64,000 bases of DNA from Chamaelirium japonicum (Eukaryota > Streptophyta > Magnoliopsida > Liliales > Melanthiaceae). The position numbers and the translations under genes were made by a program. Every line of letters starts with the position of its first letter. Positions within the stretch are counted from its first letter, which is position 1. Of the stretch, positions 2,221-36,329 are shown in pieces. Below the pieces are notes generated by a model. The model saw only the letters and a list, made by a program, of their open reading frames with translations, ran no database searches and was not told where the DNA came from. Location of the stretch: positions 23,967,981-24,031,980 of the forward strand of contig OX393552.1 of NCBI GenBank assembly GCA_947650365.1, read 5' to 3'.

Positions 2221-2238
2221 GGAAGTAAAGAAGGAAGA
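2221..2238 (+). promoter_or_regulatory. Polypurine-tract-like run
   Basis: GGAAGTAAAGAAGGAAGA has a single pyrimidine in 18 bases, sits at the end of pure AT-rich DNA and directly abuts the TG that starts the LTR-like segment. This is where a plus-strand primer (PPT) lies in LTR retrotransposons. Most modules keep it exactly; M10, M16 and M22 read GAAAGTAAAGATGGAAGA. Confidence 0.5.
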
Positions 2239-2363
2239 TGAGGCACACCCGAATTTTTGGCTTTAAAAAAATATATATTATTCTTCAAAGAAATTTAAAA
2301 CATTACAAGTTTTATGAGATCGTTCGATCGGATGACTGTCCACCGTCGGATCTCTCCCATAGA

Positions 2364-2372
2364 TTAGGGTTT
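2364..2372 (-). promoter_or_regulatory. Telo-box
   Basis: TTAGGGTTT on the + strand is AAACCCTAA on the - strand, the plant telo-box known from promoters of translation-related genes. It lies 35 bases upstream of the TATA box. Whether it is used here is not known. Confidence 0.5.
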
Positions 2373-2381
2373 CCCATATTA

Positions 2382-2398
2382 TACTTAGGCCCTAAGTA
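2382..2398. promoter_or_regulatory. 17-bp dyad upstream of TATA box
   Basis: TACTTAGG C CCTAAGTA is a perfect palindrome around one central base, ending nine bases before the TATA box. It is intact in M1, M3, M7, M11, M13, M17, M19 and M23, and has one or more mismatches in the M2, M9 and M10 families. Confidence 0.6.
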
Positions 2399-2407
2399 AG
2401 CTTACTC

Positions 2408-2415
2408 TATAAATA
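2408..2415 (+). promoter_or_regulatory. TATA box of M1
   Basis: TATAAATA lies 66 bases before the candidate LTR end. This would put the transcription start about 30 bases downstream, inside the LTR, as expected for a U3/R boundary. The site is kept in M2, M9, M10 and their copies and mutated to TAAAAATA in M3, M7, M13 and M19. Confidence 0.5.
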
Positions 2416-2478
2416 ATATACGACCCTTTAGGGTGTGGTACGTTTGACGGCTCTTTTTTTCTTTCATCTCAGAATATG

Positions 2479-2490
2479 TTATCAACACGA
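2479..2490 (+). promoter_or_regulatory. Primer-binding-site-like motif
   Basis: TTATCAACACGA follows the candidate LTR end after five bases (ATATG). It resembles the TTATCAGCACGA motif that I recall after some plant Copia LTRs, but that memory is not verified. It does not begin with TGG, so it would need priming by an internal part of a tRNA, or it is not a PBS. It is kept unchanged in M1, M2, M3 and most copies. M9 and M10 have one and two changes. Confidence 0.35.
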
Positions 2491-2708
2491 ATATATCGAG
2501 TCCAAACGACCCATCGCAAGGAAACAGAAAGAGAAACGAAGATAGAAGAGAGAGAAGAAGAGAGATGAGAATGGAGAAATAAACAAAGAGAGAAGAAGTC
2601 CTGCTCCAGTCTATTGGCCACGGGTATAGGTTTGAAGTAAGAAGTAATCTAAATTCTAAAACTCCACTTCTCAATAGTATCATCTCAATGTTATTATGAT
2701 TATCATTG

Positions 2709-3888
2709 TAATGTTTCTATAATTTTTTTAACAATATTAATCGTTTATTTACTTATAAAATAATTTAAATAATTAAAAAATTTTAATAATTAAGTTTTTA
2801 TTAAAATAATTATTTTATTTAATTATTTAATTTTTTAATTATCTAGTTATTTAATAAAATTTATTATTTTATTTATTTATTAAAATTATTATTTCAAAAA
2901 ATTATTCATTAATATAATTTACTCTTTCAATTATTAATTAAATATTTAAAAATAAAATACTTAAATTTATTTAGTTAAAATATTATATAATTATATATTG
3001 GAATTATTTTATTCGAATAAAATAATAACATAAAGATAAAATTTAATTATTCAAATATTTTATTAAATAATTTAATAATTATTTGAATTATTATTCCATA
3101 AATTATAATTAATCCAATATTTTTATTATTTACTTATTAAATAATTCAATAATGATTATTGAATTATTTTATTATTGAATTATTCAATAAGTAAATAATA
3201 AAAATATTTGATTAATTATAATTTATAGAATAATGATTCAAATAATTATTTAATTATTGAATCAATAATTTATTCAAAAAAATTATTCGATTATCATTTA
3301 AATAAATTATTAAATTATTATTTATTTTTATAACTAAAATATTAGAATTTAATTATTTAGATAATGAAATAAAGAATTATTTAAATAATTAATTATTTAG
3401 TCATTTATTAAAATATTTAAAAACTTAATTAGTAAAGAAATATATCAAATAGATTATTTACTTAAAAAAATAAATATTTTCATTAGTAAATAATTTTATA
3501 GTAAAATAAATAATAATTTAAATAAAATATTATATAATAAAATAAATAAAATTTATTAAATTATGAGATATTAATTGAAATAAGTTAAACTATTAATTAT
3601 TTAATTAAGTAATAAAATAAGACAATAATTTAATAACTATTTACTTATTATTTAAATAATTAGTTAATTATTTGAAAATATGAATTATAAAATATTTTTT
3701 AAATTGCTTAATATTTTTTTTAATAATCATTAAAATATTTATTGATTTTAATATTTAAATAATAAATAATTAGTATAAATAATTTAATTATATAGATAAT
3801 TAAATATTTCTTTAATTATTTAATTATTTAATTATTTTATTTATATAACTATTTAATTTATAAAACTAATTAAATTAATAATATAATA
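2709..3888. repeat. AT-rich foldback block
   Basis: Lies between modules M1 and M2. The palindrome core is centred near 3,162 and the arms can be traced through most of 2,900-3,420. No gene, RNA or GC-rich insert is visible. Confidence 0.8.
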
Positions 3889-4340
3889 GGAAGTAAATAA
3901 GGAAGATGAGGCACACCCGAATTTTTTGCTTTAAAAAAACTTATATTTTTCTGTAAAAAAGTTTAAAACATTACAACTATTATGAGATCGTTCGATCGGA
4001 TGATTGTTCACCGTCGGATCTCTCCCATAGATTAGGATTTCCCATATAATACTTAGGCCCTTAGTAAGCTTAGCCTATAAATAATATACGACACCTTTAG
4101 GGTGGGGTACGTTTGACGGCTCTCTCTTTCTCCCATCTCACAATATGTTATCAACACGAATATATCGAGCCCAGCTAATCCGTCGCAAGAAAACGAAGAG
4201 AGAAACGAAGACAGAAGAGAGAGAAGAAGAGAGATGAGAATGGAAAAATAAATGAAGAGAGAAGAAATCCTGCCCCAGTCCATTGGCCACGGGTATAGGT
4301 TTGAAATAAGAAGTAATCTAAATTTCAAAACTCCACTTTT
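3889..4340 (+). mobile_element. LTR-like module M2, 3'-truncated leader
   Basis: Purine tract 3,889-3,906 (one T more than in M1), LTR-like segment 3,907-4,142 (TGAG...CTCACA), TATAAATA at 4,076-4,083, PBS-like motif at 4,148-4,159. The telo-box is spoiled (TTAGGATTT) and the dyad is mismatched. The leader stops after CCACTTTT and joins TATTAGAATG, which is normally deep inside the left palindrome arm, so the outer arm has been deleted. The same junction occurs in M5, M12, M18 and M24, so it predates amplification of the 14-kb unit. Confidence 0.6.
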
Positions 4341-4937
4341 TATTAGAATGTAAACATAACATAAAGAAATAATTGAATTATTCAAATATTTTATAAAATT
4401 ATTAAATAATTTTTTGAATCATTATTCCATAAATTATAATTAATCAAATATTTTTATTATCTACTTATTGAATAATTCAATAATGATTATTGAATTATTT
4501 TTTTATTGAATTATTCAATAATTAAATTATAAAAATATTTAATTAAATATAATTTATGGAATAAGGATTCAAATAATTATTTAATTAACTTATAAAATAT
4601 TTAAATAATTTTATTATTTCTTTATGTTATTAATATTTTTTCATAGAATAATTCAATTATATAATTATATAATATTTTAATCAAATAATTTAATTATTTA
4701 ATTATTTTATTATTTACATAATAATTTAAAGTATAAATTATATAAATTAATAAGTTTTTTACAAAAATAAAATAATTTAATCAATAATTACATAACTAAA
4801 TTATTATGTAATAAAATTATTATATTATCATTTAAACAAATTATTAAATAATTATTATGTAATAAAAACTAAGTCTGGAATTATTAAATTATTAAATAAT
4901 TATTAAATAATTATTAAATTATAAATTATTATGTAAT
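4341..4937. repeat. AT-rich block with palindrome core, before short array
   Basis: Palindrome core centred near 4,495. Toward its right end ATTATTATGTAATAAAAACT occurs twice, 74 bases apart. The first occurrence carries an isolated 65-bp-repeat fragment and the second opens the short array. Confidence 0.8.
4862..4880 (+). repeat. Isolated satellite fragment in AT-rich DNA
   Basis: ATAAAAACTAAGTCTGGAA is the joint between AT-rich DNA and the first part of a 65-bp monomer, but the sequence returns to AT-rich DNA at once. It is repeated at 12,162-12,180 and in each higher-order copy (30,784, 45,137 and 60,487). Confidence 0.8.
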
Positions 4938-5288
4938 AAAAACTAAGTCTGGAATGCACACTCCGAAGCGTGGCGCACCGAAGACCGGCCAAAATTCGCC
5001 CGAAAAACTAAGTCAAAAACGCGCACCCCGAAGCATGGTACATTGAAGTCCGACCAAAATTCGCCCGAAAAACTAAGTCTAGAACGCTTACCCCGAAGCG
5101 TGGTGCACCGAAGACCGGCCTTGCTCGAAATACTAAGTTTGGAAGGCGCAGCCCGAAGCGTGGCGCACCAAAGACTGGCCGAAATTCACCCGAAAAACTA
5201 AGTCTGGAATGCGACCCCAAAGCGTGGCGCACCGAAGACCGACCGAAATTCGCTTGAAAAACTCAGTCTGGAACACGCATCCCGAAGC
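4938..5288. repeat. Short 65-bp minisatellite array S0
   Basis: About 5.4 monomers of the CpG-rich repeat recognised by AAAAACTAAGTCTGGAA, CCCGAAGCGTGGCGCACC and GACCGGCCGAAATTCGCCCG. One monomer (5,071-5,130) is only 60 bp because GAAATTCGC is shortened to TTGC. The next-but-one lacks a base in GCGACCCC. Both marks also occur in the last monomers of the long arrays, so this array is a copy of a long-array tail. Confidence 0.92.
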
Positions 5289-6202
5289 TAAAATTTTAAT
5301 TTGATAATTATTTCAATAAAGAATTATTTAATAATTTATTTCAATAATAATCTAATAAGTTTATTATATAATAATTTAGGTATTTAATTATTAATTAAAT
5401 TATTATATTATTTCAAAAAATTAATAAATAATATAATTTATTCTTAAAATTATTAATTAAATATTTTAAAAATAAAATACTTAAATTTATTTTGTTAAAA
5501 TATTATATAATTATATAATGGAATTATTTTATTAGAATATAATAATAACATAAAGAAATAATAGAATTATTCAAATATTTTATTAAATAATTAAATAATT
5601 ATTTGAATCATTATTCCATAAATTATAATTAATCCAATAATTTTATTATTTACTTATTGAATAATTCAATAATGATTATTGAATTATTTTATTATTGAAT
5701 TATTAAATAAGTAAATAATAAAAATATTTAATTAATTATAATTTATGGAATAATGATTTAAATAATAATTTAATTATTATATAAAATATTTAAATAATTT
5801 TATTATTTCTATATTTTATTAATATTTTTTAATAAAATAATTCAATTATATAATTATATAATATTTTCATCAAATAATTTAAGTATTTTATTACTTCAAT
5901 ATTTAAGTAATAATTTAAAGTATAAATTATATTAATTAATAATTTTTTAAAATAATAAAATAATTGAATAAATAATTATATGACTAGATTATTATGTAAT
6001 AAAATTATTAGATTATCATTAAAATAAATTATTAAATAATTATTTATTTATATAACTAAAATATTAGAATTTAATTATTAAGATAATTAAATAAAGAATT
6101 ATTTAAATAATAATTTTTTGAAATAATTAAATAGTTAGTCAATTATTGAAATATTTAAAAATTTAATTAGTGAATAAATATATCAAATAGATTATTTATA
6201 TA
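5289..6202. repeat. AT-rich foldback spacer between short and long arrays
   Basis: The clearest whole-block palindrome in the window. The centre is near 5,682 and the arms can be matched from about 5,300 to about 6,060. For example, GGAATTATTTTATTAGAATA on the left pairs with AATATTTTTTAATAAAATAA and its flanks on the right. The remaining 140 bases continue the right arm, whose left partner has been replaced by the array. Confidence 0.82.
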
Positions 6203-8656
6203 AGACCGATCGAAATTAGATTGAAAAACTAAGTCATAAATGCGCACCCTGAAGCGTGGCGCACCGAAGACCGACCTTAATTCGCATAAAAAACTAAGTC
6301 TGGAGTGCGATCCCAGAAGCGTGGCGCACCGAGGACCGGCCAAAATTCTCCCGAAAAACTAAGTCTGGAATGTGCACCCCAAAGCGTGGCGTACCAAGGA
6401 CATGCAAAAATTCGCTCGAAAAACTAAGTCTGGAACGAGCACCCCGAAGCGTGGCGCATCGACGATCGGCCGAAATTCGCCCAAAAAACTAAGTCTGGAA
6501 CATGCACCCCAAAGCATGGTGCACCGAAAACCGGTCGAAAATTCGTACGAAAAACTAAGTCTGTAATGCGCACCCCGAAGCGTGGTTCACCAAAGACCGA
6601 TCGAAATTCATCCAAAAAACTAAGTTAGGAACGCGCACCCTGAAGAGTGGCACACTAAAGACCTGCCGAAATTCGACAAAAAAACTAAGTCTGGAATGCG
6701 CACCCTGAAGCATAGTGCAGCGAAAACCGACCGAAATTCGCTCGAAAAGCAAACTCTGGAACGTGCACACCGAAGCGTGGCGCACCGAAGACCGATCGAA
6801 GTTCACCCAAAAAACTAAGTCTGGAATACGCGTCCTGAAGCGTGGCGCACCGAAGACCATCCAAAATTCGTCAGAAAAACTAATTCTGCAATGCGCACCC
6901 CGAAGCGTGGCACAACGAAGACCGGCCGAAATTTGCCCGAAATGATAAGTCTAGAACGTGCACCACGAAGAGTGGCGCACCGAAGAACGACCGAAATTCG
7001 CTCGAAAATCTAAGTCTGTAATGCGCATCCCGAAGCGTGGTGCACCGAAAACTAGCCAAAATTCGGTAAAGAAATAAAGTCTAGAACGCGCACCCCAAAG
7101 CGTGGTGTAGCGAAAACCGACCAAAATTCGCACGAAAAACTAAGTCTGGAACGTGCATGATGAAGCGTGGCGCACTGTAGACCGATCGAAATTCTCCCGA
7201 AAAACTAAGTCTCGAACACGCACCCCGAAGCATGGTGCACCGAAGACCGGCCAAAATTTATCCAGAAAACTAAGTCTGGAATGTGCACCCCAAAGCATGG
7301 CGCACAGAAGACCGGCCAAAATTTGCCCGGAAAACTAAGTCTGGAACGTGCACCCCGATGCGTGGCTCACCGAGGACCGACCAAAATTCGTCCGAAAAAC
7401 TAAGTTAGGAACACGCACCCCGAAGAGTGGTGCACCGAAGACTGGTCGAAATTTACCCAAAAAACTAAGTCTGGAACGCACACCTCGAAGCGTGGCGCAC
7501 CGAAGACCGACCAAAATTCGATCAAAATACTAAGTCTGGAATGCGCACCCCAAAGCGTGGCGCACCCAAAACTGGCTGAAATTCACCCGAATAACTAAGT
7601 CTGGAATGCACACACCAAAGCATGGCACATCGAAGATCGGCCGAAATTCACTTAAAAAACTATGTCTGGAATGCACATCCTGAAGCGTGGAGCACCGAAG
7701 ACCGACCGAAATTTGCCCAAAAAACTAAGTCTAGAGTGCGCACCCCGAAGCATGGCGCACAGAGGATCGGGCGAAATTCGCCCAAAAAAATAAATCTGGA
7801 ACGTGCACCCTGAAGCGTGGCGTACCAAGGACCGGCCGAAATTTGGCAGAAAAACTAAGTCTGGAACTCGCACCCTGAAGCGTGGAGCAGTGAAGACCGA
7901 TCGAAATTCACCCGAAAAACTAAGTCTTGAATGCGCACGCCAAAGCGTGGTGCACCGAAGACCGGCAGAAATTTGCCCGAAAAACTTAATCTCGAATGCG
8001 CACCCCGAAGCATGGCGCACCGAAGACAAGCCAAAATTCGCCCGAAAAATTAAGTCTGGAACGCGCACCCCGAAGAGTGCCGGACCGAAGACCGACCGAA
8101 ATTTACCTGAAAAACTAAGTTTGGAACGCGCACGTCAAAGCATGGCGCACCGAAGACCGATCGAAATTCGTGGGGAAAACTAAGTCTGGAACGTGCACCC
8201 CGAAGCGTGGCGCACCGAAGACTAACCAAAATTCACCCGAAAAACTGAGTCTGGAATGCGCACCCCGATGTATGGCGCACCGACGATCAGCCAAAATTTG
8301 ATCGAAAAACTAAGTCTGGAATGCACACTCCGAAGCGTGGCGCACCGAAGACCGGCCAAAATTCGCCCGAAAAAACTAAGTCAAAAACGCGCACCCCGAA
8401 GCATGGTGCATTGAAGTCCGACCAAAATTCGCCCGAAAAACTAAGTCTAGAACGCGCACCCCGAAGCGTGGTGCACCGAAGACCGGCCTTGCTCGAAATA
8501 CTAAGTTTGGAATGCGCAGCCCGAAGCGTGGCGCACCAAAGACTGGCCGAAATTCACCCGAAAAACTAAGTCTGGAATGCGACCCCAAAGCGTGGCGCAC
8601 CGAAGACCGGCCGAAATTCGCTTGAAAAACTCAGTCTGGAACACGCATCCCGAAGC
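6203..8656. repeat. Long 65-bp minisatellite array L0 (alpha type)
   Basis: About 38 head-to-tail monomers of 64-66 bp. Starts mid-monomer at AGACCGATCG and ends mid-monomer at CATCCCGAAGC. The consensus is about 60% GC with about ten CpG sites per monomer. Most monomer differences are CG to TG or CA changes (GAAGCGTGG against GAAGCATGG, GCGCAC against GTGCAC or GCACAC). Open frames of 60-138 codons on both strands are by-products of few stop codons. Confidence 0.95.
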
Positions 8657-9993: not shown

Positions 9994-10407
9994 GGAAGTA
10001 AAGAAGGAAGATGAGGCACACCCGAATTTTTTGCTTTAAAAAAATTTATATTTTTCTTTTAAAAAATTTAAAACATTACAACTGTTATGTGATCGTTCGA
10101 TCGGATGACTATTCACCGTCAGATCTCTCACATAGATTTGGGTTTCCTAAATAATACTTAGGCCCTAAGTAAACTTACCCTAAAAATAATATACAACCCC
10201 TTTAGGGTGGGGCATGTTTGACGGCTCTCTCTTTCTCCCATCTCACAATATGTTATCAACACGAATATATCAAGCCGAGCCAATCCGTGGCAAGAAAACG
10301 GAGAGAGAAACAAAGACAGAAGAGGGAGAAGAAGAGAGATGAGAATGGAGAAATAAACGAATAGAGAAGAAGTCCTGCCCCAGTCCATTGGCCATGGGTA
10401 TAGGTTT
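9994..10407 (+). mobile_element. LTR-like module M3, damaged TATA, truncated leader
   Basis: Purine tract 9,994-10,011, LTR-like segment 10,012-10,247, PBS-like motif 10,253-10,264. The TATA position reads TAAAAATA and the telo-box is changed, while the dyad is intact. The leader ends at TATAGGTTT and joins AATTTATTTCTTTACT of the outer left arm, so its last 90 or so bases are missing. Confidence 0.58.
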
Positions 10408-11150: not shown

Positions 11151-11383
11151 GAAGTAAAGAAGTAAGATGAGGCACACCCGAATTTTTTGCTTTAAAAAAT
11201 TTATATTTTTCTTTAAAAAAATTTAAAACATTACAACTGTTATGAGATCGTTCGATTGGATGACTGTCCACTGTCGGAAGAAAACGAAGAGAGAAATAAA
11301 GGCAGAAGAGAGAGAAGATTAGATATGAGAATGGAAAAATAAACGAAGAGAGAAGAAATCATGCTCCAGTCCATTAGCCATGG
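11151..11383 (+). mobile_element. LTR-like module M4 with internal deletion, cut at 11,384
   Basis: Starts with a changed purine tract and TGAGGCACACCC at 11,168. After CTGTCGGA the sequence jumps to AGAAAACGAAG of the leader, losing telo-box, dyad, TATA, LTR end and PBS-like motif. The leader then stops at the rearrangement point. It cannot be an active promoter. Confidence 0.6.
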
Positions 11384-11390
11384 ATATACG
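11384..11390. other. Rearrangement junction with 7-base microhomology
   Basis: ATATACG is shared by the leader of an M8-type module (GGATATACGTTTG at 22,952) and the post-TATA part of an M2-type module (AATATACGACACC at 4,082). Left of it the sequence follows the M8 type, right of it the M2 type. Confidence 0.88.
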
Positions 11391-11640
11391 ACACCTTTAG
11401 GGTGGGGTACGTTTGACGGCTCTCTCTTTCTCCCATCTCACAATATGTTATCAACACGAATATATCGAGCCCAGCTAATCCGTCGCAAGAAAACGAAGAG
11501 AGAAACGAAGACAGAAGAGAGAGAAGAAGAGAGATGAGAATGGAAAAATAAATGAAGAGAGAAGAAATCCTGCCCCAGTCCATTGGCCACGGGTATAGGT
11601 TTGAAATAAGAAGTAATCTAAATTTCAAAACTCCACTTTT
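11384..11640 (+). mobile_element. LTR-like module M5, 5'-truncated by rearrangement
   Basis: Equivalent to 4,084-4,340. It keeps the LTR-like 3' part (to 11,442), the PBS-like motif (11,448-11,459) and the M2-type truncated leader. It lacks purine tract, telo-box, dyad and TATA box. Confidence 0.6.
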
Positions 11641-12237
11641 TATTAGAATGTAAACATAACATAAAGAAATAATTGAATTATTCAAATATTTTATAAAATT
11701 ATTAAATAATTTTTTGAATCATTATTCCATAAATTATAATTAATCAAATATTTTTATTATCTACTTATTGAATAATTCAATAATGATTATTGAATTATTT
11801 TTTTATTGAATTATTCAATAATTAAATTATAAAAATATTTAATTAAATATAATTTATGGAATAAGGATTCAAAAATTTATTTAATTAACTTATAAAATAT
11901 TTAAATAATTTTATTATTTCTTTATGTTATTAATATTTTTTCATAGAATAATTCAATTATATAATTATATAATATTTTAATCAAATAATTTAATTATTTA
12001 ATTATTTTATTATTTACTTAATAATTTAAAGTATAAATTATATAAATTAATAAGTTTTTTACAATAATAAAATAATTTAATCAATAATTACATAACTAAA
12101 TTATTATGTAATAAAATTATTATATTATTATTTAAACAAATTATTAAATAATTATTATGTAATAAAAACTAAGTCTGGAATTATTAAATAATTAAATAAT
12201 TATTAAATTATAAATTAATAATTATATATTAATAAAT
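11641..12237. repeat. AT-rich block with palindrome core
   Basis: Follows 4,341-4,885 at offset 7,300, core near 11,795, with the isolated satellite fragment at 12,162-12,180. The last 55 bases (from about 12,187) differ from the other copies and lead into the array through AAATTAAGTCTGG. Confidence 0.8.
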
Positions 12238-13298
12238 TAAGTCTGGAATGCACACACCAAAGCATGGCACATCGAAGATCGGCCGAAATTCACTTAAAAA
12301 ACTATGTCTGGAATGCACATCCTGAAGCGTGGAGCACCGAAGACCGACCGAAATTTGCCCAAAAAACTAAGTCTAGAGTGCGCACCCCGAAGCATGACGC
12401 ACAGAGGATCGGGCGAAATTCGCCCAAAAAAATAAATCTGGAACGTGCACCCTGAAGCGTGGCGTACCAAGGACCGGCCGAAATTTGGCAGAAAAACTAA
12501 GTCTGGAACTCGCACCCTGAAGAGTGGAGCAGTGAAGACCGATCGAAATTCACCCGAAAAACTAAGTCTTGAATGCGCACGCCAAAGCGTGGTGCACCAA
12601 AGACCGGCAGAAATTTGCCCGAAAAACTTAATCTGGAATGCGCACCCCGAAGCATGGCGCACCGAAGACAAGCCAAAATTCGCCCGAAAAATTAAGTCTG
12701 GAACGCGCACCCCGAAGAGTGCCGGACCGAAGACCGACCGAAATTTACCTGAAAAACTAAGTTTGGAACGCGCACGTCAAAGCATGGCGCACCGAAGACC
12801 GATCGAAATTCGTGGGGAAAACTAAGTCTGGAACGTGCACCCCGAAGCATGGCGCACCGAAGACTAACCAAAATTCACCCGAAAAACTGAGTCTGGAATG
12901 CGCACCCCGATGTATGGCGCACCGACGATCAGCCAAAATTTGATCGAAAAACTAAGTCTGGAATGCACACTCCGAAGCGTGGCGCACCGAAGACCGGCCA
13001 AAATTCGCCCGAAAAAACTAAGTCAAAAACGCGCAGCCCGAAGCATGGTGCATTGAAGTCCGACCAAAATTCGCCCGAAAAACTAAGTCTAGAACGCGCA
13101 CCCCGAAGCGTGGTGCACCAAAGACCGGCCTTGCTCGAAATACTAAGTTTGGAATGCGCAGCCCGAAGCGTGGCGCACCAAAGACTGGCCGAAATTCACC
13201 CGAAAAACTAAGTCTGGAATACGACCCCAAAGCGTGGCGCACCGAAGACCGGCCGAAATTCGCTTGAAAAACTCAGTCTGGAACACGCATCCCGAAGC
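12238..13298. repeat. Intermediate 65-bp array L' (about 16 monomers)
   Basis: Matches 7,596-8,656 at offset 4,642, including the 60-bp monomer near the end. It occupies the position of the short array in the other units, so the array at this site varies from about 5 to about 16 monomers. Confidence 0.93.
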
Positions 13299-14212
13299 TA
13301 AAATTTTAATTTTATAATTACTTCAATAAAGAATTATTTAATAATTTATTTCAATAATAATCTAATAAGTTTATTATATAATAATTTAGGTATTTAATTA
13401 TTAATTAAATTATTATATTATTTCAAAAAATTAATAAATAATATAATTTATTCTTAAAATTATTAATTAAATATTTTAAAAATAAAATACTTAAATTTAT
13501 TTTGTTAAAATATTATATAATTATATAATGGAATTATTTTATTAGAATATAATAATAACATAAAGAAATAATAGAATTATTCAAATATTTTATTAAATAA
13601 TTAAATAATTATTTGAATCATTATTCCATAAATTATAATTAATCCAATAATTTTATTATTTACTTATTGAATAATTCAATAATGATTATTGAATTATTTT
13701 ATTATTGAATTATTAAATAATTAAATAATAAAAATATTTAATTAATTATAATTTAAGGAATAATGATTTAAATAATAATTTAATTATTATATAAAATATT
13801 TAAATAATTTTATTATTTCTATATTTTATTAATATTTTTTAATAAAATAATTCAATTATATAATTATATAATATTTTCATCAAATAATTTAAGTATTTTA
13901 TTACTTCAATATTTAAGTAATAATTTAAAGTATAAATTATATTAATTAATAATTTTTTAAAATAATAAAATAATTGAATAAATAATTATATGACTAGATT
14001 ATTATGTAATAAAATTATTAGATTATCATTAAAATAAATTATTAAATAATTATTTATTTATATAACTAAAATATTAGAATTTAATTATTAAGATAATTAA
14101 ATAAAGAATTATTTAAATAATAATTTTTTGAAATAATTAAATAGTTAGTCAATTATTGAAATATTTAAAAATTTAATTAGTGAATAAATATATCAAATAG
14201 ATTATTTATATA
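13299..14212. repeat. AT-rich foldback spacer
   Basis: Same as 5,289-6,202 at offset 8,010, core near 13,692. Private marks include AATTTAAGGAATAATG near 13,750, which recurs near 61,370. Confidence 0.85.
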
Positions 14213-16666
14213 AGACCGATCGAAATTAGATTGAAAAACTAAGTCATAAATGCGCACCCTGAAGCGTGGCGCACCGAAGACCGACCTTAATTCGCACAAA
14301 AAACTAAGTCTGGAGTGCGATCCCAGAAGCGTGGCGCACCGAGGACCGGCCAAAATTCTCCCGAAAAACTAAGTCTGGAATGTGCACCCCAAAGCGTGGC
14401 GTACCAAGGACATGCAAAAATTCGCTCGAAAAACTAAGTCTGGAACGAGCACCCCGAAGCGTGGCGCATCGACGATCGGCCGAAATTCGCCCAAAAAACT
14501 AAGTCTGGAACATGCACCCCAAAGCATAGTGCACCGAAAACCGGTCGAAAATTCGTACGAAAAACTAAGTCTGTAATGCGCACCCCGAAGCGTGGTTCAC
14601 CAAAGACCGATCAAAATTCATCCAAAAAACTAAGTTAGGAACGCGCACCCTGAAGAGTGGCACACTAAAGACCTGCCGAAATTCGACAAAAAAACTAAGT
14701 CTGGAATGCGCACCCTGAAGCGTAGTGCAGCGAAAACCGACCGAAATTCGCTCGAAAAGCAAACTCTGGAACGTGCACACCGAAGCGTGGCGCACCGAAG
14801 ACCGATCGAAGTTCACCCAAAAAACTAAGTCTGGAATACGCGTCCTGAAGCGTGGCGCACCGAAGACCATCCAAAATTCGTCAGAAAAACTAAGTCTGCA
14901 ATGCGCACCCCGAAGCGTGGCACAACGAAGACCGACCGAAATTTGCCCGAAATGATAAGTCTAGAACGCGCACCACGAAGAGTGGCGCACCGAAGAACGA
15001 CCGAAATTCGCTCGAAAATCTAAGTCTGTAATGCGCATCCCGAAGCATGGTGCACCGAAAACTAGCCAAAATTCGGTAAAGAAATAAAGTCTAGAACGCG
15101 CACCCCAAAGCGTGGTGTAGCGAAAACCGACCAAAATTCGCACGAAAAACTAAGTCTGGAACGTGCATGATGAAGCGTGGCGCACTGTAGACCGATCGAA
15201 ATTCTCCCGAAAAACTAAGTCTCGAACACGCACCCCGAAGCGTGGTGCACCGAAGACCGGCCAAAATTTATCCAGAAAACTAAGTCTGGAATGTGCACCC
15301 CAAAGCATGGCGCACAGAAGACCGGCCAAAATTTGCCCGGAAAACTAAGTCTGGAACGTGCACCCCGATGCGTGGCTCACCGAGGACCGACCAAAATTCG
15401 TCCGAAAAACTAAGTTAGGAACACGCACCCCGAAGAGTGGTGCACCGAAGACTGGTCGAAATTTACCCAAAAAACTAAGTCTAGAACGCACACCTCGAAG
15501 CGTGGCGCACCGAAGACCGACCAAAATTCGATCGAAATACTAAGTCTGGAATGCGCACCCCAAAGCGTGGCGCACCCAAAACTGGCTGAAATTCACCCGA
15601 ATAACTAAGTCTGGCATGCACACACCAAAGCATGGCACATCGAAGATCGGCCGAAATTCACTTAAAAAACTATGTCTGGAATGCACATCCTGAAGCGTGG
15701 AGCACCGAAGACCGACCGAAATTTGCCCAAAAAACTAAGTCTAGAGTGCGCACCCCGAAGCATGGCGCACAGAGGATCGGGCGAAATTCGCCCAAAAAAA
15801 TAAATCTGGAACGTGCACCCTGAAGCGTGGCGTACCAAGGACCGGCCGAAATTTGGCAGAAAAACTAAGTCTGGAACTCGCACCCTGAAGCGTGGAGCAG
15901 TGAAGACCGATCGAAATTCACCCGAAAAACTAAGTCTTGAATACGCACGCCAAAGCGTGGTGCACCGAAGACCGGCAGAAATTTGCCCAAAAAACTTAAT
16001 CTGGAATGCGCACCCCGAAGCATGGCGCACCGAAGACAAGCCAAAATTCGCCCGAAAAATTAAGTCTGGAACGCGCACCCCGAAGAGTGCCGGACCGAAG
16101 ACCGACCGAAATTTACCTGAAAAACTAAGTTTGGAACGCGCACGTCAAAGCATGGCGCACCGAAGACCGATCGAAATTCGTGGGGAAAACTAAGTCTGGA
16201 ACGTGCACCCCGAAGCATGGCGCACCGAAGACTAACCAAAATTCACCCGAAAAACTGAGTCTGGAATGCGCACCCCGATGTATGGCGCACCGACGATAAG
16301 CCAAAATTTGATCGAAAAACTAAGTCTGGAATGCACACTCCGAAGCGTGGCGCACCGAAGACCGGCCAAAATTCGCCCGAAAAAACTAAGTCAAAAACAC
16401 GCACCCCGAAGCATGGTGCATTGAAGTCCGACCAAAATTCGCCCGAAAAACTAAGTCTAGAACGCGCACCCCGAAGCGTGGTGCACCGAAGACCGGCCTT
16501 GCTCGAAATACTAAGTTTGGAATGCGCAGCCCGAAGCGTGGCGCACCAAAGACTGGCCGAAATTCACCCGAAAAACTAAGTCTGGAATGCGACCCCAAAG
16601 CGTGGCGCACCGAAGACCGGCCGAAATTCGCTTGAAAAACTCAGTCTGGAACACGCATCCCGAAGC
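14213..16666. repeat. Long 65-bp minisatellite array L0' (beta type)
   Basis: Same length and monomer order as 6,203-8,656 at offset 8,010, but with a different set of substitutions. For example it has GAAGCGTAGTGCAG at 14,717 where alpha arrays have GAAGCATAGTGCAG, and CTAAGTCTGC at 14,890 where alpha has CTAATTCTGC. The array at 61,828 shares these. Confidence 0.93.
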
Positions 16667-17909: not shown

Positions 17910-18088
17910 GAAGAAACGAAGGCAGAAGAGAGAGAAGAAGATATATGATAATGGAGAAATAAACGAGGAGAGAAGAAATCCTGCTCCAGTCCATTAGCCA
18001 CAAGTATAGGTTTGAAGTATGAAGTAATCTAAATTCCAAAACTTCACTTCTCAATAGTATCATCTCAACGTTATTATGATTATCATTG
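17910..18088 (+). mobile_element. LTR-like module M6, leader remnant only
   Basis: Begins directly after AT-rich DNA at GAAGAAACGAAGGCAG and runs through the purine-rich leader, CCATTAGCC and the conserved end at ATTATCATTG. Purine tract, LTR-like segment and PBS-like motif are absent. Single copy in the window. Confidence 0.6.
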
Positions 18089-23470: not shown

Positions 23471-23958
23471 GGAAGTAAAGAAGGAAGATGAGGCACACCC
23501 AAATTTTTTGCTTTAAAAAAATTTATTTTTTTCTTTTTAAAAAATTTAAAATATTATAACTGTTATGAGATCGTTCGATCGGATGACTGTCCACCGTCGG
23601 ATCCCTCCCTTAGATTAGGGTTTCCCATATAATACTTAGGCCATAAGTAAGCTTACCCTATAAATAATATACGACCCCTTTAGGGTGGGGCACGTTTGAC
23701 GGCTCTCTTTTTCCCATCTCATAATATGTTATTAACACGAACATATCGAGCCCAATCGACCCGTCGTAAGAAAACAGAGAGAACAACGAAGACAAAAGAG
23801 AGAGAAGAAGAGAGATGAGAATGGTGAAATAAACAAAGAGGGAAGAAGTCCTGCTCCAGTCCATTGGCCATGGGTATAGGTTTGAAGTAAGAAGTAATCT
23901 AAATTCCAAAAATCCACTTCTCAATAGTATCATCTCAACGTTACTATGATTATCATTG
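23471..23958 (+). mobile_element. LTR-like module M9, full length
   Basis: Purine tract 23,471-23,488, LTR-like segment 23,489-23,723 ending CTCATA, PBS-like motif TTATTAACACGA at 23,729-23,740, leader to the conserved ATTATCATTG end. The dyad has one mismatch. Confidence 0.6.
23615..23666 (+). promoter_or_regulatory. Telo-box to TATA box of M9
   Basis: TTAGGGTTT at 23,615-23,623 and TATAAATA at 23,659-23,666, in the same spacing as in M1. Confidence 0.48.
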
Positions 23959-25175: not shown

Positions 25176-25656
25176 GAAAGTAAAGATGGAAGATGAGGCA
25201 AACCCAAATTTTTTTCTTTAAAAAAATATATTTTTCTTTAAAAAAATTTAAAATATTATAACTGTTATGGGATCATTCGATCGGATGACTGTCCACCGTC
25301 GGATCCCTCTCTTAGATTAGGGTTTCCCATATAATACTAAGGCCCTAAGTAAGCTTACCCTATAAATAATATACGACTCCTTTAGGGTGGGGCATGTTTG
25401 ACGGCTCTCTCATTCTCCCATCTCATAATATGTTATTAATACGAACTTATCGAGCCCAGTCGACCCGTCGCAAGAAAGCGGAGAGAGAAACGAAGACAAA
25501 AGAGACAGAAGAAGAAAGATGAGAATGAAGAAATAAATGAAGAGAGAAAAAGTCATGCTCCAATCCATTGGCCATAGGTCTGAAGTAAGAAGTAATCTAA
25601 ATTCCAAATCTCCACTTCTTAATAGTATTATCTCAACGTTATTATGATTATCATTG
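25176..25656 (+). mobile_element. LTR-like module M10, full length, divergent
   Basis: Purine tract 25,176-25,193 with a T in GATGGAAGA, LTR-like segment 25,194-25,427, PBS-like motif TTATTAATACGA at 25,433-25,444, complete leader. GAGGCAAACCC replaces GAGGCACACCC. It is the most diverged of the full-length modules. Confidence 0.58.
25317..25368 (+). promoter_or_regulatory. Telo-box to TATA box of M10
   Basis: TTAGGGTTT at 25,317-25,325 and TATAAATA at 25,361-25,368; the dyad reads ACTAAGGCCCTAAGT with a mismatch. Confidence 0.48.
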
Positions 25657-28142: not shown

Positions 28143-28630
28143 GGAAGTAAAGAAGGAAGATGAGGCACACCCGAATTTTTGGCTTTAAAAAAATATATAT
28201 TATTCTTCAAAGAAATTTAAAACATTACAAGTTTTATGAGATCGTTCGATCGGATGACTGTCCACCGTCGGATCTCTCCCATAGATTAGGGTTTCCCATA
28301 TTATACTTAGGCCCTAAGTAAGCTTACTCTATAAATAATATACGACCCTTTAGGGTGTGGTACGTTTGACGGCTCTTTTTTTCTTTCATCTCAGAATATG
28401 TTATCAACACGAATATATCGAGTCCAAACGACCCATCGCAAGGAAACAGAAAGAGAAACGAAGATAGAAGAGAGAGAAGAAGAGAGATGAGAATGGAGAA
28501 ATAAACAAAGAGAGAAGAAGTCCTGCTCCAGTCTATTGGCCACGGGTATAGGTTTGAAGTAAGAAGTAATCTAAATTCTAAAACTCCACTTCTCAATAGT
28601 ATCATCTCAATGTTATTATGATTATCATTG
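28143..28630 (+). mobile_element. LTR-like module M11 (M1 type), full length
   Basis: Identical in layout to M1 at offset 25,922: LTR-like segment 28,161-28,395, dyad 28,304-28,320, PBS-like motif 28,401-28,412. Confidence 0.6.
28286..28337 (+). promoter_or_regulatory. Telo-box to TATA box of M11
   Basis: TTAGGGTTT at 28,286-28,294, intact 17-bp dyad, TATAAATA at 28,330-28,337. Confidence 0.48.
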
Positions 28631-29810
28631 TAATGTTTCTATAATTTTTTTAACAATATTAATCGTTTATTTACTTATAAAATAATTTAAATAATTAAAA
28701 AATTTTAATAATTAAGTTTTTATTAAAATAATTATTTTATTTAATTATTTAATTTTTTAATTATCTAGTTATTTAATAAAATTTATTATTTTATTTATTT
28801 ATTAAAATTATTATTTCAAAAAATTATTCATTAATATAATTTACTCTTTCAATTATTAATTAAATATTTAAAAATAAAATACTTAAATTTATTTAGTTAA
28901 AATATTATATAATTATATATTGGAATTATTTTATTCGAATAAAATAATAACATAAAGATAAAATTTAATTATTCAAATATTTTATTAAATAATTTAATAA
29001 TTATTTGAATTATTATTCCATAAATTATAATTAATCCAATATTTTTATTATTTACTTATTAAATAATTCAATAATGATTATTGAATTATTTTATTATTGA
29101 ATTATTCAATAAGTAAATAATAAAAATATTTGATTAATTATAATTTATAGAATAATGATTCAAATAATTATTTAATTATTGAATCAATAATTTATTCAAA
29201 AAAATTATTCGATTATCATTTAAATAAATTATTAAATTATTATTTATTTTTATAACTAAAATATTAGAATTTAATTATTTAGATAATGAAATAAAGAATT
29301 ATTTAAATAATTAATTATTTAGTCATTTATTAAAATATTTAAAAACTTAATTAGTAAAGAAATATATCAAATAGATTATTTACTTAAAAAAATAAATATT
29401 TTCATTAGTAAATAATTTTATAGTAAAATAAATAATAATTTAAATAAAATATTATATAATAAAATAAATAAAATTTATTAAATTATGAGATATTAATTGA
29501 AATAAGTTAAACTATTAATTATTTAATTAAGTAATAAAATAAGACAATAATTTAATAACTATTTACTTATTATTTAAATAATTAGTTAATTATTTGAAAA
29601 TATGAATTATAAAATATTTTTTAAATTGCTTAATATTTTTTTTAATAATCATTAAAATATTTATTGATTTTAATATTTAAATAATAAATAATTAGTATAA
29701 ATAATTTAATTATATAGATAATTAAATATTTCTTTAATTATTTAATTATTTAATTATTTTATTTATATAACTATTTAATTTATAAAACTAATTAAATTAA
29801 TAATATAATA
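28631..29810. repeat. AT-rich foldback block
   Basis: Core near 29,084; same as 2,709-3,888. Confidence 0.8.
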
Positions 29811-30262
29811 GGAAGTAAATAAGGAAGATGAGGCACACCCGAATTTTTTGCTTTAAAAAAACTTATATTTTTCTGTAAAAAAGTTTAAAACATTACAACT
29901 ATTATGAGATCGTTCGATCGGATGATTGTTCACCGTCGGATCTCTCCCATAGATTAGGATTTCCCATATAATACTTAGGCCCTTAGTAAGCTTAGCCTAT
30001 AAATAATATACGACACCTTTAGGGTGGGGTACGTTTGACGGCTCTCTCTTTCTCCCATCTCACAATATGTTATCAACACGAATATATCGAGCCCAGCTAA
30101 TCCGTCGCAAGAAAACGAAGAGAGAAACGAAGACAGAAGAGAGAGAAGAAGAGAGATGAGAATGGAAAAATAAATGAAGAGAGAAGAAATCCTGCCCCAG
30201 TCCATTGGCCACGGGTATAGGTTTGAAATAAGAAGTAATCTAAATTTCAAAACTCCACTTTT
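29811..30262 (+). mobile_element. LTR-like module M12 (M2 type)
   Basis: LTR-like segment 29,829-30,064, TATAAATA 29,998-30,005, PBS-like motif 30,070-30,081, leader truncated at the M2 junction. Confidence 0.6.
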
Positions 30263-30859
30263 TATTAGAATGTAAACATAACATAAAGAAATAATTGAAT
30301 TATTCAAATATTTTATAAAATTATTAAATAATTTTTTGAATCATTATTCCATAAATTATAATTAATCAAATATTTTTATTATCTACTTATTGAATAATTC
30401 AATAATGATTATTGAATTATTTTTTTATTGAATTATTCAATAATTAAATTATAAAAATATTTAATTAAATATAATTTATGGAATAAGGATTCAAATAATT
30501 ATTTAATTAACTTATAAAATATTTAAATAATTTTATTATTTCTTTATGTTATTAATATTTTTTCATAGAATAATTCAATTATATAATTATATAATATTTT
30601 AATCAAATAATTTAATTATTTAATTATTTTATTATTTACATAATAATTTAAAGTATAAATTATATAAATTAATAAGTTTTTTACAATAATAAAATAATTT
30701 AATCAATAATTACATAACTAAATTATTATGTAATAAAATTATTATATTATCATTTAAACAAATTATTAAATAATTATTATGTAATAAAAACTAAGTCTGG
30801 AATTATTAAATTATTAAATAATTATTAAATAATTATTAAATTATAAATTATTATGTAAT
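30263..30859. repeat. AT-rich block with palindrome core
   Basis: Core near 30,417; isolated satellite fragment at 30,784-30,802. Confidence 0.8.
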
Positions 30860-31210
30860 AAAAACTAAGTCTGGAATGCACACTCCGAAGCGTGGCGCAC
30901 CGAAGACCGGCCAAAATTCGCCCGAAAAACTAAGTCAAAAACGCGCACCCCGAAGCATGGTACATTGAAGTCCGACCAAAATTCGCCCGAAAAACTAAGT
31001 CTAGAACGCTCACCCCGAAGCGTGGTGCACCGAAGACCGGCCTTGCTCGAAATACTAAGTTTGGAAGGCGCAGCCCGAAGCGTGGCGCACCAAAGACTGG
31101 CCGAAATTCACCCGAAAAACTAAGTCTGGAATGCGACCCCAAAGCGTGGCGCACCGAAGACCGACCGAAATTCGCTTGAAAAACTCAGTCTGGAACACGC
31201 ATCCCGAAGC
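30860..31210. repeat. Short 65-bp array S1
   Basis: Same as 4,938-5,288, including the 60-bp monomer. Reads AACGCTCACC near 31,008 where S0 has AACGCTTACC, so S0 has a C-to-T change. Confidence 0.92.
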
Positions 31211-32124
31211 TAAAATTTTAATTTGATAATTATTTCAATAAAGAATTATTTAATAATTTATTTCAATAATAATCTAATAAGTTTATTATATAATAATTTA
31301 GGTATTTAATTATTAATTAAATTATTATATTATTTCAAAAAATTAATAAATAATATAATTTATTCTTAAAATTATTAATTAAATATTTTAAAAATAAAAT
31401 ACTTAAATTTATTTTGTTAAAATATTATATAATTATATAATGGAATTATTTTATTAGAATATAATAATAACATAAAGAAATAATAGAATTATTCAAATAT
31501 TTTATTAAATAATTAAATAATTATTTGAATCATTATTCCATAAATTATAATTAATCCAATAATTTTATTATTTACTTATTGAATAATTCAATAATGATTA
31601 TTGAATTATTTTATTATTGAATTATTAAATAAGTAAATAATAAAAATATTTAATTAATTATAATTTATGGAATAATGATTTAAATAATAATTTAATTATT
31701 ATATAAAATATTTAAATAATTTTATTATTTCTATATTTTATTAATATTTTTTAATAAAATAATTCAATTATATAATTATATAATATTTTCATCAAATAAT
31801 TTAAGTATTTTATTACTTCAATATTTAAGTAATAATTTAAAGTATAAATTATATTAATTAATAATTTTTTAAAATAATAAAATAATTGAATAAATAATTA
31901 TATGACTAGATTATTATGTAATAAAATTATTAGATTATCATTAAAATAAATTATTAAATAATTATTTATTTATATAACTAAAATATTAGAATTTATTTAT
32001 TAAGATAATTAAATAAAGAATTATTTAAATAATAATTTTTTGAAATAATTAAATAGTTAGTCAATTATTGAAATATTTAAAAATTTAATTAGTGAATAAA
32101 TATATCAAATAGATTATTTATATA
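31211..32124. repeat. AT-rich foldback spacer
   Basis: Core near 31,604. GAATTTATTTATTAAG near 31,990 is shared with H2 only; the other copies have GAATTTAATTATTAAG. Confidence 0.83.
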
Positions 32125-34578
32125 AGACCGATCGAAATTAGATTGAAAAACTAAGTCATAAATGCGCACCCTGAAGCGTGGCGCACCGAAGACCGACCTT
32201 AATTCGCACAAAAAACTAAGTCTGGAGTGCGATCCCAGAAGCGTGGCGCACCGAGGACCGGCCAAAATTCTCCCGAAAAACTAAGTCTGGAATGTGCACC
32301 CCAAAGCGTGGCGTACCAAGGACATGCAAAAATTCGCTCGAAAAACTAAGTCTGGAACGAGCACCCCGAAGCGTGGCGCATCGACGATCGGCCGAAATTC
32401 GCCCAAAAAACTAAGTCTGGAACATGCACCCCAAAGCATGGTGCACCGAAAACCGGTCGAAAATTCGTACGAAAAACTAAGTCTGTAATGCACACCCCGA
32501 AGCGTGGTTCACCAAAGACCGATCGAAATTCATCCAAAAAACTAAGTTAGGAACGCGCACCCTGAAGAGTGGCACACTAAAGACCTGCCGAAATTCGACA
32601 AAAAAACTAAGTCTGGAATGCGCACCCTGAAGCATAGTGCAGCGAAAACCGACCGAAATTCGCTCGAAAAGCAAACTCTGGAACGTGCACACCGAAGCGT
32701 GGCGCACCGAAGACCGATCGAAGTTCACCCAAAAAACTAAGTCTGGAATACGCGTCCTGAAGCGTGGCGCACCGAAGACCATCCAAAATTCGTCAGAAAA
32801 ACTAATTCTGCAATGCGCACCCCGAAGCGTGGCACAACGAAGACCGGCCGAAATTTGCCCGAAATGATAAGTCTAGAACGTGCACCACGAAGAGTGGCGC
32901 ACCGAAGAACGACCGAAATTCGCTCGAAAATCTAAGTCTGTAATGCGCATCCCGAAGCGTGGTGCACCGAAAACTAGCCAAAATTCGGTAAAGAAATAAA
33001 GTCTAGAACGCGCACCCCAAAGCGTGGTGTAGCGAAAACCGACCAAAATTCGCACGAAAAACTAAGTCTGGAACGTGCATGATGAAGCGTGGCGCACTGT
33101 AGACCGATCGAAATTCTCCCGAAAAACTAAGTCTCGAACACGCACCCCGAAGCATGGTGCACCGAAGACCGGCCAAAATTTATCCAGAAAACTAAGTCTG
33201 GAATGTGCACCCCAAAGCATGGCGCACAGAAGACCGGCCAAAATTTGCCCGGAAAACTAAGTCTGGAACGTGCACCCCGATGCGTGGCTCACCGAGGACC
33301 GACCAAAATTCGTCCGAAAAACTAAGTTAGGAACACGCACCCCGAAGAGTGGTGCACCGAAGACTGGTCGAAATTTACCCAAAAAACTAAGTCTGGAACG
33401 CACACCTCGAAGCGTGGCGCACCGAAGACCGACCAAAATTCGATCGAAATACTAAGTCTGGAATGCGCACCCCAAAGCGTGGCGCACCCAAAACTGGCTG
33501 AAATTCACCCGAATAACTAAGTCTGGAATGCACACACCAAAGCATGGCACATCGAAGATCGGCCGAAATTCACTTAAAAAACTATGTCTGGAATGCACAT
33601 CCTGAAGCGTGGAGCACCGAAGACCGACCGAAATTTGCCCAAAAAACTAAGTCTAGAGTGCGCACCCCGAAGCATGGCGCACAGAGGATCGGGCGAAATT
33701 CGCCCAAAAAAATAAATCTGGAACGTGCACCCTGAAGCGTGGCGTACCAAGGACCGACCGAAATTTGGCAGAAAAACTAAGTCTGGAACTCGCACCCTGA
33801 AGCGTGGAGCAGTGAAGACCGATCGAAATTCACCCGAAAAACTAAGTCTTGAATGCGCATGCCAAAGCGTGGTGCACCGAAGACCGGCAAAAATTTGCCC
33901 GAAAAACTTAATCTCGAATGCGCACCCCGAAGCATGGCGCACCGAAGACAAGCCAAAATTCGCCCGAAAAATTAAGTCTGGAACGCGCACCCCGAAGAGT
34001 GCCGGACCGAAGACCGACCGAAATTTACCTGAAAAACTAAGTTTGGAACGCGCACGTCAAAGCATGGCGCACCAAAGACCGATCGAAATTCGTGGGGAAA
34101 ACTAAGTCTGGAACGTGCACCCCGAAGCATGGCGCACCGAAGACTAACCAAAATTCACCCGAAAAACTGAGTCTGGAATGCGCACCCCGATGTATGGCGC
34201 ACCGACGATCAGCCAAAATTTGATCGAAAAACTAAGTCTGGAATGCACACTCCGAAGCGTGGCGCACCGAAGACCGGCCAAAATTCGCCCGAAAAAACTA
34301 AGTCAAAAACGCGCACCCCGAAGCATGGTGCATTGAAGTCCGACCAAAATTCGCCCGAAAAACTAAGTCTAGAACGCGCACCCCGAAGCGTGGTGCACCG
34401 AAGACCGGCCTTGCTCGAAATACTAAGTTTGGAATGCGCAGCCCGAAGCGTGGCGCACCAAAGACTGGCCGAAATTCACCCGAAAAACTAAGTCTGGAAT
34501 GCGACCCCAAAGCGTGGCGCACCGAAGACCGGCCGAAATTCGCTTGAAAAACTCAGTCTGGAACACGCATCCCGAAGC
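32125..34578. repeat. Long 65-bp array L1 (alpha type)
   Basis: Matches 6,203-8,656 base for base except for scattered changes, several of them CG to CA or TG (for example GCGCATGCC near 33,855 against GCGCACGCC near 7,933). These changes are shared with L2. Confidence 0.94.
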
Positions 34579-35915
34579 TAAAATTTTAATTTTATAATTA
34601 TTTCAATAAAGAATTATTTAATAATTTATTTCAATAATAATCTAATAAGTTTATTATATAATAATTTAGGTATTTAATTATTAATTAAATTATTATATTA
34701 TTTCAAAAAATTAATAAATAATATAATTTATTCTTAAAATTATTAATTAAATATTTTAAAAATAAAATAATTAAATTTATTTTGTTAAAATATTATATAA
34801 TTATATAATGGAATTATTTTATTAGAATATAATAATAACATAAAGAAATAATAGAATTATTCAAATATTTTATTAAATAATTAAATAATTATTTGAATCA
34901 TTATTTCATAAATTATAATTAATCCAATAATTTTATTATTTACTTATTGAATAATTCAATAATGATTATTGAATTATTTTATTATTGAATTATTAAATAA
35001 GTAAATAATAAAAATATTTAATTAATTATAATTTATGGAATAATGATTTAAATAATAATTTAATTATTATCTAAAATATTTAAATAATTTTATTATTTCT
35101 ATATTTTATTAATATTTTTTAATAAAATAATTCAATTATATAATTATATAATATTTTCATCAAATAATTTAAGTATTTTATTACTTCAATATTTAAGTAA
35201 TAATTTAAAGTATAAATTATATTAATTAATAATTTTTTAAAATAATAAAATAATTGAATAAATAATTATATGATAGATTATTATGTAATAAAATTATTAG
35301 ATTATCATTAAAATAAATTATTAAATAATTATTTATTTATATAACTAAAATATTAGAATTTAATTATTAAGATAATTAAATAAAGAATTATTTAAATAAT
35401 AATTTTTTGAAATAATTAAATAGTTAGTCAATTATTGAAATATTTAAAAATTTAATTAGTGAATAAATAAAATAGTTAATTTATAAATTATTTTATTATT
35501 TCAAAAAATTATTAATTAATATAATTTAATCTTTGAATTATTAATGACATATTTAAAAAATAAAATAGTTAAATTTGTTTACTTAAATAATTTTATAGTT
35601 AAATAAATAATAATTTAAATAAAATATTATATAATGAAATAAATAAAAAAAATTATTAAATTATGAGATATTAATTTAAATAACAAAAAAAAAAATTATT
35701 TAATTAAGTAATAAAATAAGAAAATAATTTAATAACTATTTACTTATTATTAAAATAATTAGTTAATTATTTGAATATATGAATAATAAAATATTTTTTT
35801 AAATAGCTTAATACTTTTATTAATAATTAAAGAAATATTTATTGATTTTAATATTTAATTATTTAATTTATTTAACTATTTAATTTATTAAACTAATTAA
35901 ATTAATTAAATAAAA
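34579..35915. repeat. AT-rich foldback block after long array
   Basis: Core near 34,972; the shared deletion joint lies near 35,465-35,482. Confidence 0.8.
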
Positions 35916-36329
35916 GGAAGTAAAGAAGGAAGATGAGGCACACCCGAATTTTTTGCTTTAAAAAAATTTATATTTTTCTTTTAAAAAATTTAAAACATTA
36001 CAACTGTTATGTGATCGTTCGATCGGATGACTATTCACCGTCAGATCTCTCACATAGATTTGGGTTTCCTAAATAATACTTAGGCCCTAAGTAAACTTAC
36101 CCTAAAAATAATATACAACCCCTTTAGGGTGGGGCATGTTTGACGGCTCTCTCTTTCTCCCATCTCACAATATGTTATCAACACGAATATATCAAGCCGA
36201 GCCAATCCGTGGCAAGAAAACGGAGAGAGAAACAAAGACAGAAGAGGGAGAAGAAGAGAGATGAGAATGGAGAAATAAACGAATAGAGAAGAAGTCCTGC
36301 CCCAGTCCATTGGCCATGGGTATAGGTTT
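35916..36329 (+). mobile_element. LTR-like module M13 (M3 type)
   Basis: LTR-like segment 35,934-36,169, PBS-like motif 36,175-36,186, mutated TATA, truncated leader. Confidence 0.58.

Follow-up and report, generated by a model that had tools for sequence, protein, structure and literature searches.

The module at positions 2221-2708 was very probably a fragment of a Ty1/copia retrotransposon. Namely, it appeared to comprise the 5' LTR, the primer binding site (PBS) and the leader of such an element together with an AT-rich flank, which had been cut off from the element and now formed part of a satellite repeat unit. Sequence comparison showed that the module LTR was homologous to copia LTRs dispersed in the same genome. 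The module was a clear case of the control region of a jumping gene that had turned into satellite DNA; the telo-box and the types of retroelement pointed to a plant as the probable host. This type of origin was already known; what was new relative to the known retrotransposon-derived satellites was the captured part and the AT-rich setting. Moreover, a single genome displayed both ends of the process, with copia relatives on each of C1-C12 and a satellite derived from their 5' control region. The original prediction, made from the letters of the module, had proposed an LTR-retroelement identity, which was borne out, and the dispersed relatives specified it as Ty1/copia.

The satellite array and its modules

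The window, i.e., the whole analysed stretch of 64,000 nucleotides (G000:C4:23967981-24031980), was a satellite array with a higher-order unit of 14.35 kb, in which modules A-F recurred, according to blastn, with a period of 14,353 bp (from 28143 to 42496). One higher-order unit with modules A-F inside occupied 28143-42495 on the plus strand, and the next copies of module A were at 42496 and 57846. The last interval was 15,350 bp instead of 14,353 bp because the distance between modules E and F was about 1 kb longer in that unit (52177-54881; 2,704 vs 1,707 bp). Long stretches were 98.8-99.9% alike between the units, and module and spacer stretches inside one unit were about 80% alike. The window thus had the long tandem arrays, homogenised over a period of several units, that mark a satellite with higher-order repeats, and the tandem satellite status had been predicted correctly. 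A blastn search of the window found four copies of module A at 99.8-100% identity, including itself, as well as a diverged set, all on the plus strand. The same modules spanned 23.67 to 24.08 Mb on C4. GC content fell to about 7% where the AT-rich DNA was purest, e.g., at 1-2000.

Module A was preceded by the satellite-type 5' flank of the LTR (2141-2309), which included a purine tract (2221-2238), the block TGAGGCACACCC (2239-2250) and an AT-rich stretch that ended in ACATTACAAG. The AT-to-GC step at 2221 was compositional, and strong conservation between the modules began about 80 bp earlier, near 2141. The copia-derived LTR itself (2310-2476) aligned with the dispersed LTRs L058 and L062-L067. 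Its ends read TTTTATGA...GAATA, the ancestral ones being TGTTATGA...CAACA, and it carried a telo-box (2364-2372), the palindrome CTTAGGCCCTAAG (2384-2396) and a TATA box at 2408. Next came a decayed PBS, TGTTATCAACACGA (2477-2490), which read CGTTATCAGCACGA in the relatives, and a purine-rich fragment of the 5' leader (2491-2690, with an approximate 3' end) that could be aligned among the modules and with the first part of the dispersed leaders. All these features, like the AT-rich spacer between modules A and B (2691-3888) and the other modules, lay on the plus strand.

The same layout was seen in module B (3889-4349; LTR 3978-4145, PBS 4146-4159), module E (23471-23958; LTR 23561-23726, PBS 23727-23740) and module F (25178-25656; LTR 25263-25430, PBS 25431-25444). 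Module C (9994-10407; LTR start 10083, PBS 10251-10264) had a mutated TATA box and a truncated leader, the C copies stopping at module position 413. Module D (11151-11649; copy D1) was rearranged, and the fragment at 17912-18088 consisted of the leader alone. A motif scan of the window revealed 22 TGAGG blocks and 19 PBS-like sites; 22 LTR starts followed the TGAGG blocks at a distance of about 70 bp. The TATA box could be placed in 18 modules; it read TATAAATAATATA in 14 and the mutated AAAAATAATATA in four, all of them C copies. Three D copies (22720, 37073 and 51426) had neither a TATA box nor a PBS. Therefore, the predicted order of LTR, PBS and leader was right, and the complete motif order was real in module A and most others, but it did not extend to every module since the D copies, D1, C and the 17912 fragment deviated. 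Per 30-base block, similarity between the modules was mostly 0.87-0.95 in the LTR and leader, with one block at 0.76, and 0.6-0.9, mostly below 0.8, in the spacers.

The predicted absence of gag and pol also held within the searches made. The leader of module A contained no Pfam family above the cut-off, and the longest open reading frame in the window, counting ATG, GTG or TTG starts, did not exceed 138 aa. Additionally, no tRNA gene was found in the window, and Rfam gave zero matches at the gathering score. The modules held a single LTR and no reverse transcriptase (RT).

Dispersed relatives and the borders of the LTR

Genome-wide searches covered the 1.52 Gb of the host genome in 3,253 contigs. 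A 35-bp LTR core with the TATA box had 30,418 sites at up to 2 mismatches and the reversed pattern had none, so the motifs were not due to chance. Only two of the first 100 sites listed were clearly solitary (C1:42.1 and 46.7 Mb). The TGAGG block had 2,949 sites against 0 for the control, and 99 of the first 100 listed were in clusters. The ratio between these two counts was rough because the two patterns differed in stringency; L039 and L045 fitted it, with a single TGAGG block ahead of a series of partial LTR-PBS-leader units. Chains of such partial units, spaced about 230-370 bp apart behind a single TGAGG block, were observed at L038-L040, L043, L045-L048 and L050. In satellite copies such as L039 and L045, the LTR end and the PBS contained the 19-mer CAACACGTTATCAGCACGA, which occurred at 6,035 genome sites (0 for the reversed control). 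A search for dispersed insertions gave another 13 genome matches (0 in the control), but these proved to be satellite copies surrounded by AT-rich DNA and were not counted as dispersed. No relatives were found in viral_contigs.

Dispersed elements were reached through single occurrences of the 19-mer, 10 of the 43 listed on C1 below 116 Mb being read. All 10 had an LTR of 153-157 bp that started with TGTTATGA, ended with CAACA and was immediately followed by CG-TTATCAGCACGA. In blastn, the LTR of L058 aligned with the module at 76.7% over 180 bp, and the other nine gave no match. A search with the L058 LTR yielded 1,992 candidates, and the 40 matches that were scored lay on many contigs. Six of these 40 were read together with L061, a locus found by pattern. 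L062, L065 and L067 were 5' LTRs with a recognisable PBS, as was L058, and each had its own flank. L061 was a 5' LTR in which a TA repeat took the place of the start, L063 and L066 were 3' LTRs behind a polypurine tract (PPT), and L064 was a satellite-type copy.

Two of these loci belonged to one element on C55. Its LTRs, at 89718-89885 (L065, 5', followed by the PBS) and 96155-96322 (L066, 3'), were on one strand, measured 168 bp each, were 89.9% identical and had TG and CA ends. The sequence upstream of the 3' LTR was CCAAGGGGGAG, with the PPT AAGGGGGAG directly before the LTR. Identity of the C55 LTRs to the LTRs of modules A, B, C, E and F was 74.7-78.9% (75.7% and 76.9% for module A), and 200 shuffles of module E reached at most 52.2% against the C55 5' LTR. 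Between the LTRs, a 451-bp region (C55:94800-95250) encoded a decayed copia RT with the YVDD motif and stops (PF07727, E 5.8e-6), although its 26.5 bits were under the Pfam curated cut-off of 31.6. This element had an LTR pair, a PBS, a PPT and the decayed RT; its five-base flanks, TATAA and TATAC, were identical at 4 of 5 positions, an imperfect target duplication. A second element at C3:55.459-55.466 Mb had PBS, RT and PPT in order, with one mismatch each in the PBS and the PPT. The distance from PBS to PPT was about 6.3 kb in C55 and about 6.6 kb in the C3:55.46 Mb element. The relatives therefore had the attributes of a source element: paired TG...CA LTRs, an RVT_2-type RT between them and a PBS complementary to a tRNA.

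With up to 1 mismatch allowed, the PPT AAGGGGGAG directly before TGTTATG formed 109 junctions genome-wide (0 for the control), and every contig from C1 to C12 had one or more. The 58-aa RT piece of C55 had 150 scored genome matches. For 15 of the 40 best, such a junction followed on the same strand in the next 6 kb (0.9-1.4 kb away in 13 cases and about 4.3 kb away in two), and one junction was common to two of the 15. Control positions on the wrong strand or upstream gave 0, with 100 of the 109 junctions used, and 25 of the 40 matches had no listed junction nearby. On C8 (16998120-17017096), four junctions on one strand (16998120, 17004439, 17010757 and 17017076) were spaced at 6,318-6,319 bp; judging from this spacing, the locus was possibly a shared-LTR tandem of a full-length copia element.

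A second copia family (L051-L057, L059 and L060; C1 generally) had an LTR beginning with TGTTATGAAA(C/T)GGTGGTTGC, the same PBS and a different U3. Twelve of 20 RT matches on C1 lay 4.9-5.6 kb downstream of its PBS, several in open frames of more than 1,000 codons; two of the 20 were beyond the range of the listed PBS places. In L055, L057 and L058, no Pfam match at E 0.1 was present in the 780 bp that follow the PBS. The leaders of all ten loci L051-L060 contained an AGGTA(C/T) motif 150-311 bp after the PBS start, with AGGTACGCC in six of them, and this motif resembled a 5' splice site.

The dispersed relatives defined the borders of the module LTR. In the dispersed copies it extended from TGTTATGA to (C/T)AACA, which corresponded to 2310-2476 in the window. 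The predicted start at TGAGGCACACCC was not supported since the dispersed LTRs began at TGTTATG, 71 bp downstream of it in module A. Nor did the dispersed copies end at TGAG and CTCACA, so that the border claim of the original prediction failed its own criterion, the 3' end being 3 bp off. The 60 bp before TGTTATG were compared with module E at 15 loci, with shuffles as the control (100 per satellite-type copy). Two loci with an unrecognisable LTR start, L061 and L043, were dropped, and six of the 13 satellite-type loci of the source set were left out. Six satellite copies (83-92%) and L064 (77%) each exceeded all 100 of their own shuffles, whereas the six dispersed LTRs (L058, L062, L063, L065, L066 and L067) reached 30-55%, inside the shuffle ranges. 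The flank was shared by the tested satellite copies and absent from the tested dispersed LTRs; thus, TGAGGCACACCC and the purine tract were satellite flank.

It followed that the 18-base purine tract had been misread as a PPT. The real PPT was AAGGGGGAG directly before TGTTATG, as at the 109 junctions. No PPT directly preceded the module LTR, no second LTR was found in the module, and none of the 100 of 109 junctions listed placed AAGGGGGAGTGTTATGAGATC in the listed LTR-core clusters or in the C4 array of the window. The proposal that one LTR ended a unit and started the next was accordingly left without support: with the purine tract not a PPT and the LTR start not at TGAGGCACACCC, no LTR here was shown to be common to two units.

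The primer binding site and tRNA-Ile(AAU)

The original prediction had suggested comparing the PBS with internal parts of tRNAs, and this comparison was productive. The PBS of the relatives, CGTTATCAGCACGA, was complementary at 13 of 14 positions to the anticodon arm of tRNA-Ile(AAU), i.e., positions 29-42 of the 76-base gene in L010. In mature tRNA-Ile(AAU), the wobble base 34 is inosine. The sole mismatch was at this base, where inosine would pair with C; if inosine-34 is assumed, the match becomes 14 of 14. All nine genome matches to the anticodon-arm pattern were tRNA-Ile genes according to ARAGORN, and 13 or more matching positions were reached in 3 of 2,000 random trials against 46 shuffled tRNA-Ile sequences. 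The window PBS TGTTATCAACACGA matched at 11 of 14 positions, a level reached or exceeded in 294 of 2,000 composition-matched trials (about 15%). Since this was no better than chance, the window was not decisive by itself, and the identity of the PBS rested on the relatives.

Priming by a tRNA fragment would be consistent with this complementarity. A short tRNA segment as primer separates Hemivirus from Pseudovirus (PMC8515867), and a PBS for the anticodon loop of tRNA-Ile-AAT is reported for fungal Copia and Helenus (PMC10886601). Neither half-tRNA nor tRNA-Ile priming of plant copia was found in the titles or abstracts searched, and a text search of the literature for the tRNA-arm letters had 0 matches. 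Our results put on record a tRNA-Ile(AAU) anticodon-arm PBS that was present in thousands of copies in a single genome.

The reverse complement of an ice-plant small RNA, mcr-miR6, holds all 20 bases of CAACACGTTATCAGCACGAA, and the star is one base off (PMC4977306). This would be a parallel to a very improbable function of the satellite, namely a standing anti-copia store whose read-through RNA or small RNAs target copia elements with the same LTR end and PBS, or soak up the tRNA-Ile fragment that these elements need. If true, such a store would draw on about 30,000 sites of the LTR core, a large number of which also have the PBS and the leader.

Origin of the satellite and comparison with known systems

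The founding event might have been one insertion or one captured fragment in AT-rich DNA, after which the internal and 3' parts of the element would have been lost. Amplification and homogenisation would have proceeded by unequal exchange or by rolling-circle re-insertion; the outcome, i.e., duplicated LTR-leader pieces and homogenised multi-unit blocks, was seen directly. Substitutions were dominated by C>T (14.6%) and G>A (11.7%) compared to T>C (6.2%) and A>G (5.1%), as computed from 67 of 85 rows, with tRNA genes and AT-rich chance matches excluded and loci L001-L005 left out. This excess would fit methylated, silent heterochromatin, and a passive heterochromatic satellite was the most likely present state.

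It was very improbable that the satellite was the older partner and that a copia element took satellite promoter DNA as its LTR. Satellite-type copies did appear commoner, with 30,418 core sites against 109 PPT-LTR junctions, patterns that differed in stringency. However, the dispersed copies showed the LTR with the borders of an element and with a PBS and a PPT, and the second copia family shared the TGTTATGA...CAACA ends and the PBS despite its different U3, so that this layout looked native to the elements.

The original prediction of a TRIM-like miniature element, amplified in an LTR-internal-LTR-internal pattern with a PPT at 2221-2238, an LTR from TGAGG and each LTR common to neighbours, was highly improbable. 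It was true that the order of purine tract, TG start, TATA box, PBS and leader was present, that tandem Cassandra TRIM arrays with exactly such a layout are published (PMC7215508), and that the full-length copia element on C8, with its 6,319-bp period, may have a shared-LTR layout. Nevertheless, the dispersed LTRs of the family started at TGTTATG rather than TGAGG, the true PPT-LTR junction was absent from the compared satellite blocks (100 of 109 places listed), and neither of the two relatives with located ends was miniature, their PBS and PPT lying about 6.3 and 6.6 kb apart. A module that lacked both a PPT-LTR junction and a second LTR was not a TRIM multiplied in this way. No TRIM-like element was found, and no dispersed short TRIM copies with target duplications were seen among the loci read in a search that was not exhaustive.

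Finally, a functional promoter array under selection, serving a non-coding RNA or a spacer-promoter system, was extremely unlikely: the LTR and leader were more alike between modules than the spacers and 14 copies retained the TATAAATAATATA TATA box, but bad alignment of the low-complexity AT-rich spacers exaggerated this contrast, the conserved flank reached into AT-rich DNA, the TATA box was mutated in four copies, the PBS and core decayed by C>T and G>A, and no Rfam family was present.

The reading of the module as a captured copia 5' region could be placed among known systems. The relatives were like Ty1/copia elements (Pseudoviridae) that are primed by a short tRNA segment (Hemivirus; PMC8515867), with TG...CA LTRs, PBS, PPT, RVT_2 and a PBS for an internal tRNA segment. 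In contrast to such elements, the window modules held the LTR, the PBS and part of the leader alone. The 3'UTR-derived satellites of Lathyrus Ogre were alike in that part of an LTR retrotransposon formed long arrays and the parents were dispersed. However, the Ogre seed is a short 3'UTR tandem repeat, whereas the seed here was the copia 5' LTR-PBS-leader, set in very AT-rich spacers and higher-order units (PMC7004042). Cassandra TRIM arrays similarly have repeated LTRs that alternate with spacers, but Cassandra differs in its true internal domain, in the 5S sequence of its LTR and in its PBS, TGGTATCAGAGC (PMC7215508). Identity with Cassandra or an rDNA-type spacer was ruled out by the 0 Rfam matches, the lack of a tRNA and the different PBS. 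The Helenus and Copia families of fungi were alike in that their PBS fits the anticodon region of tRNA-Ile(AAU); they differed in host and in their tRNA-like LTRs, and no satellite is described in the excerpt of the report on them (PMC10886601). Since promoter, PBS and leader were all kept here, transcription of the satellite and silencing of the parent family become testable.

A 65-bp GC-rich satellite (AAACTAAGTCTGGAATGCGCACCCCGAAGCGTGG...) was inserted at several places of the window. It formed an array between modules B and C (6202-8656, no strand assigned) and further arrays at 4938-5288, 12234-13298 and 14212-16666 and in later copies. It was located both inside and beside AT-rich arrays, as in L018 and L029, with long arrays also on C223 and at C4:23.60 Mb. 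On C48, the array border (L024, from about 3400, read to about 4200) passed into another short-period repeat, of the GAATGAATTAGAATGGATCGTAC type.
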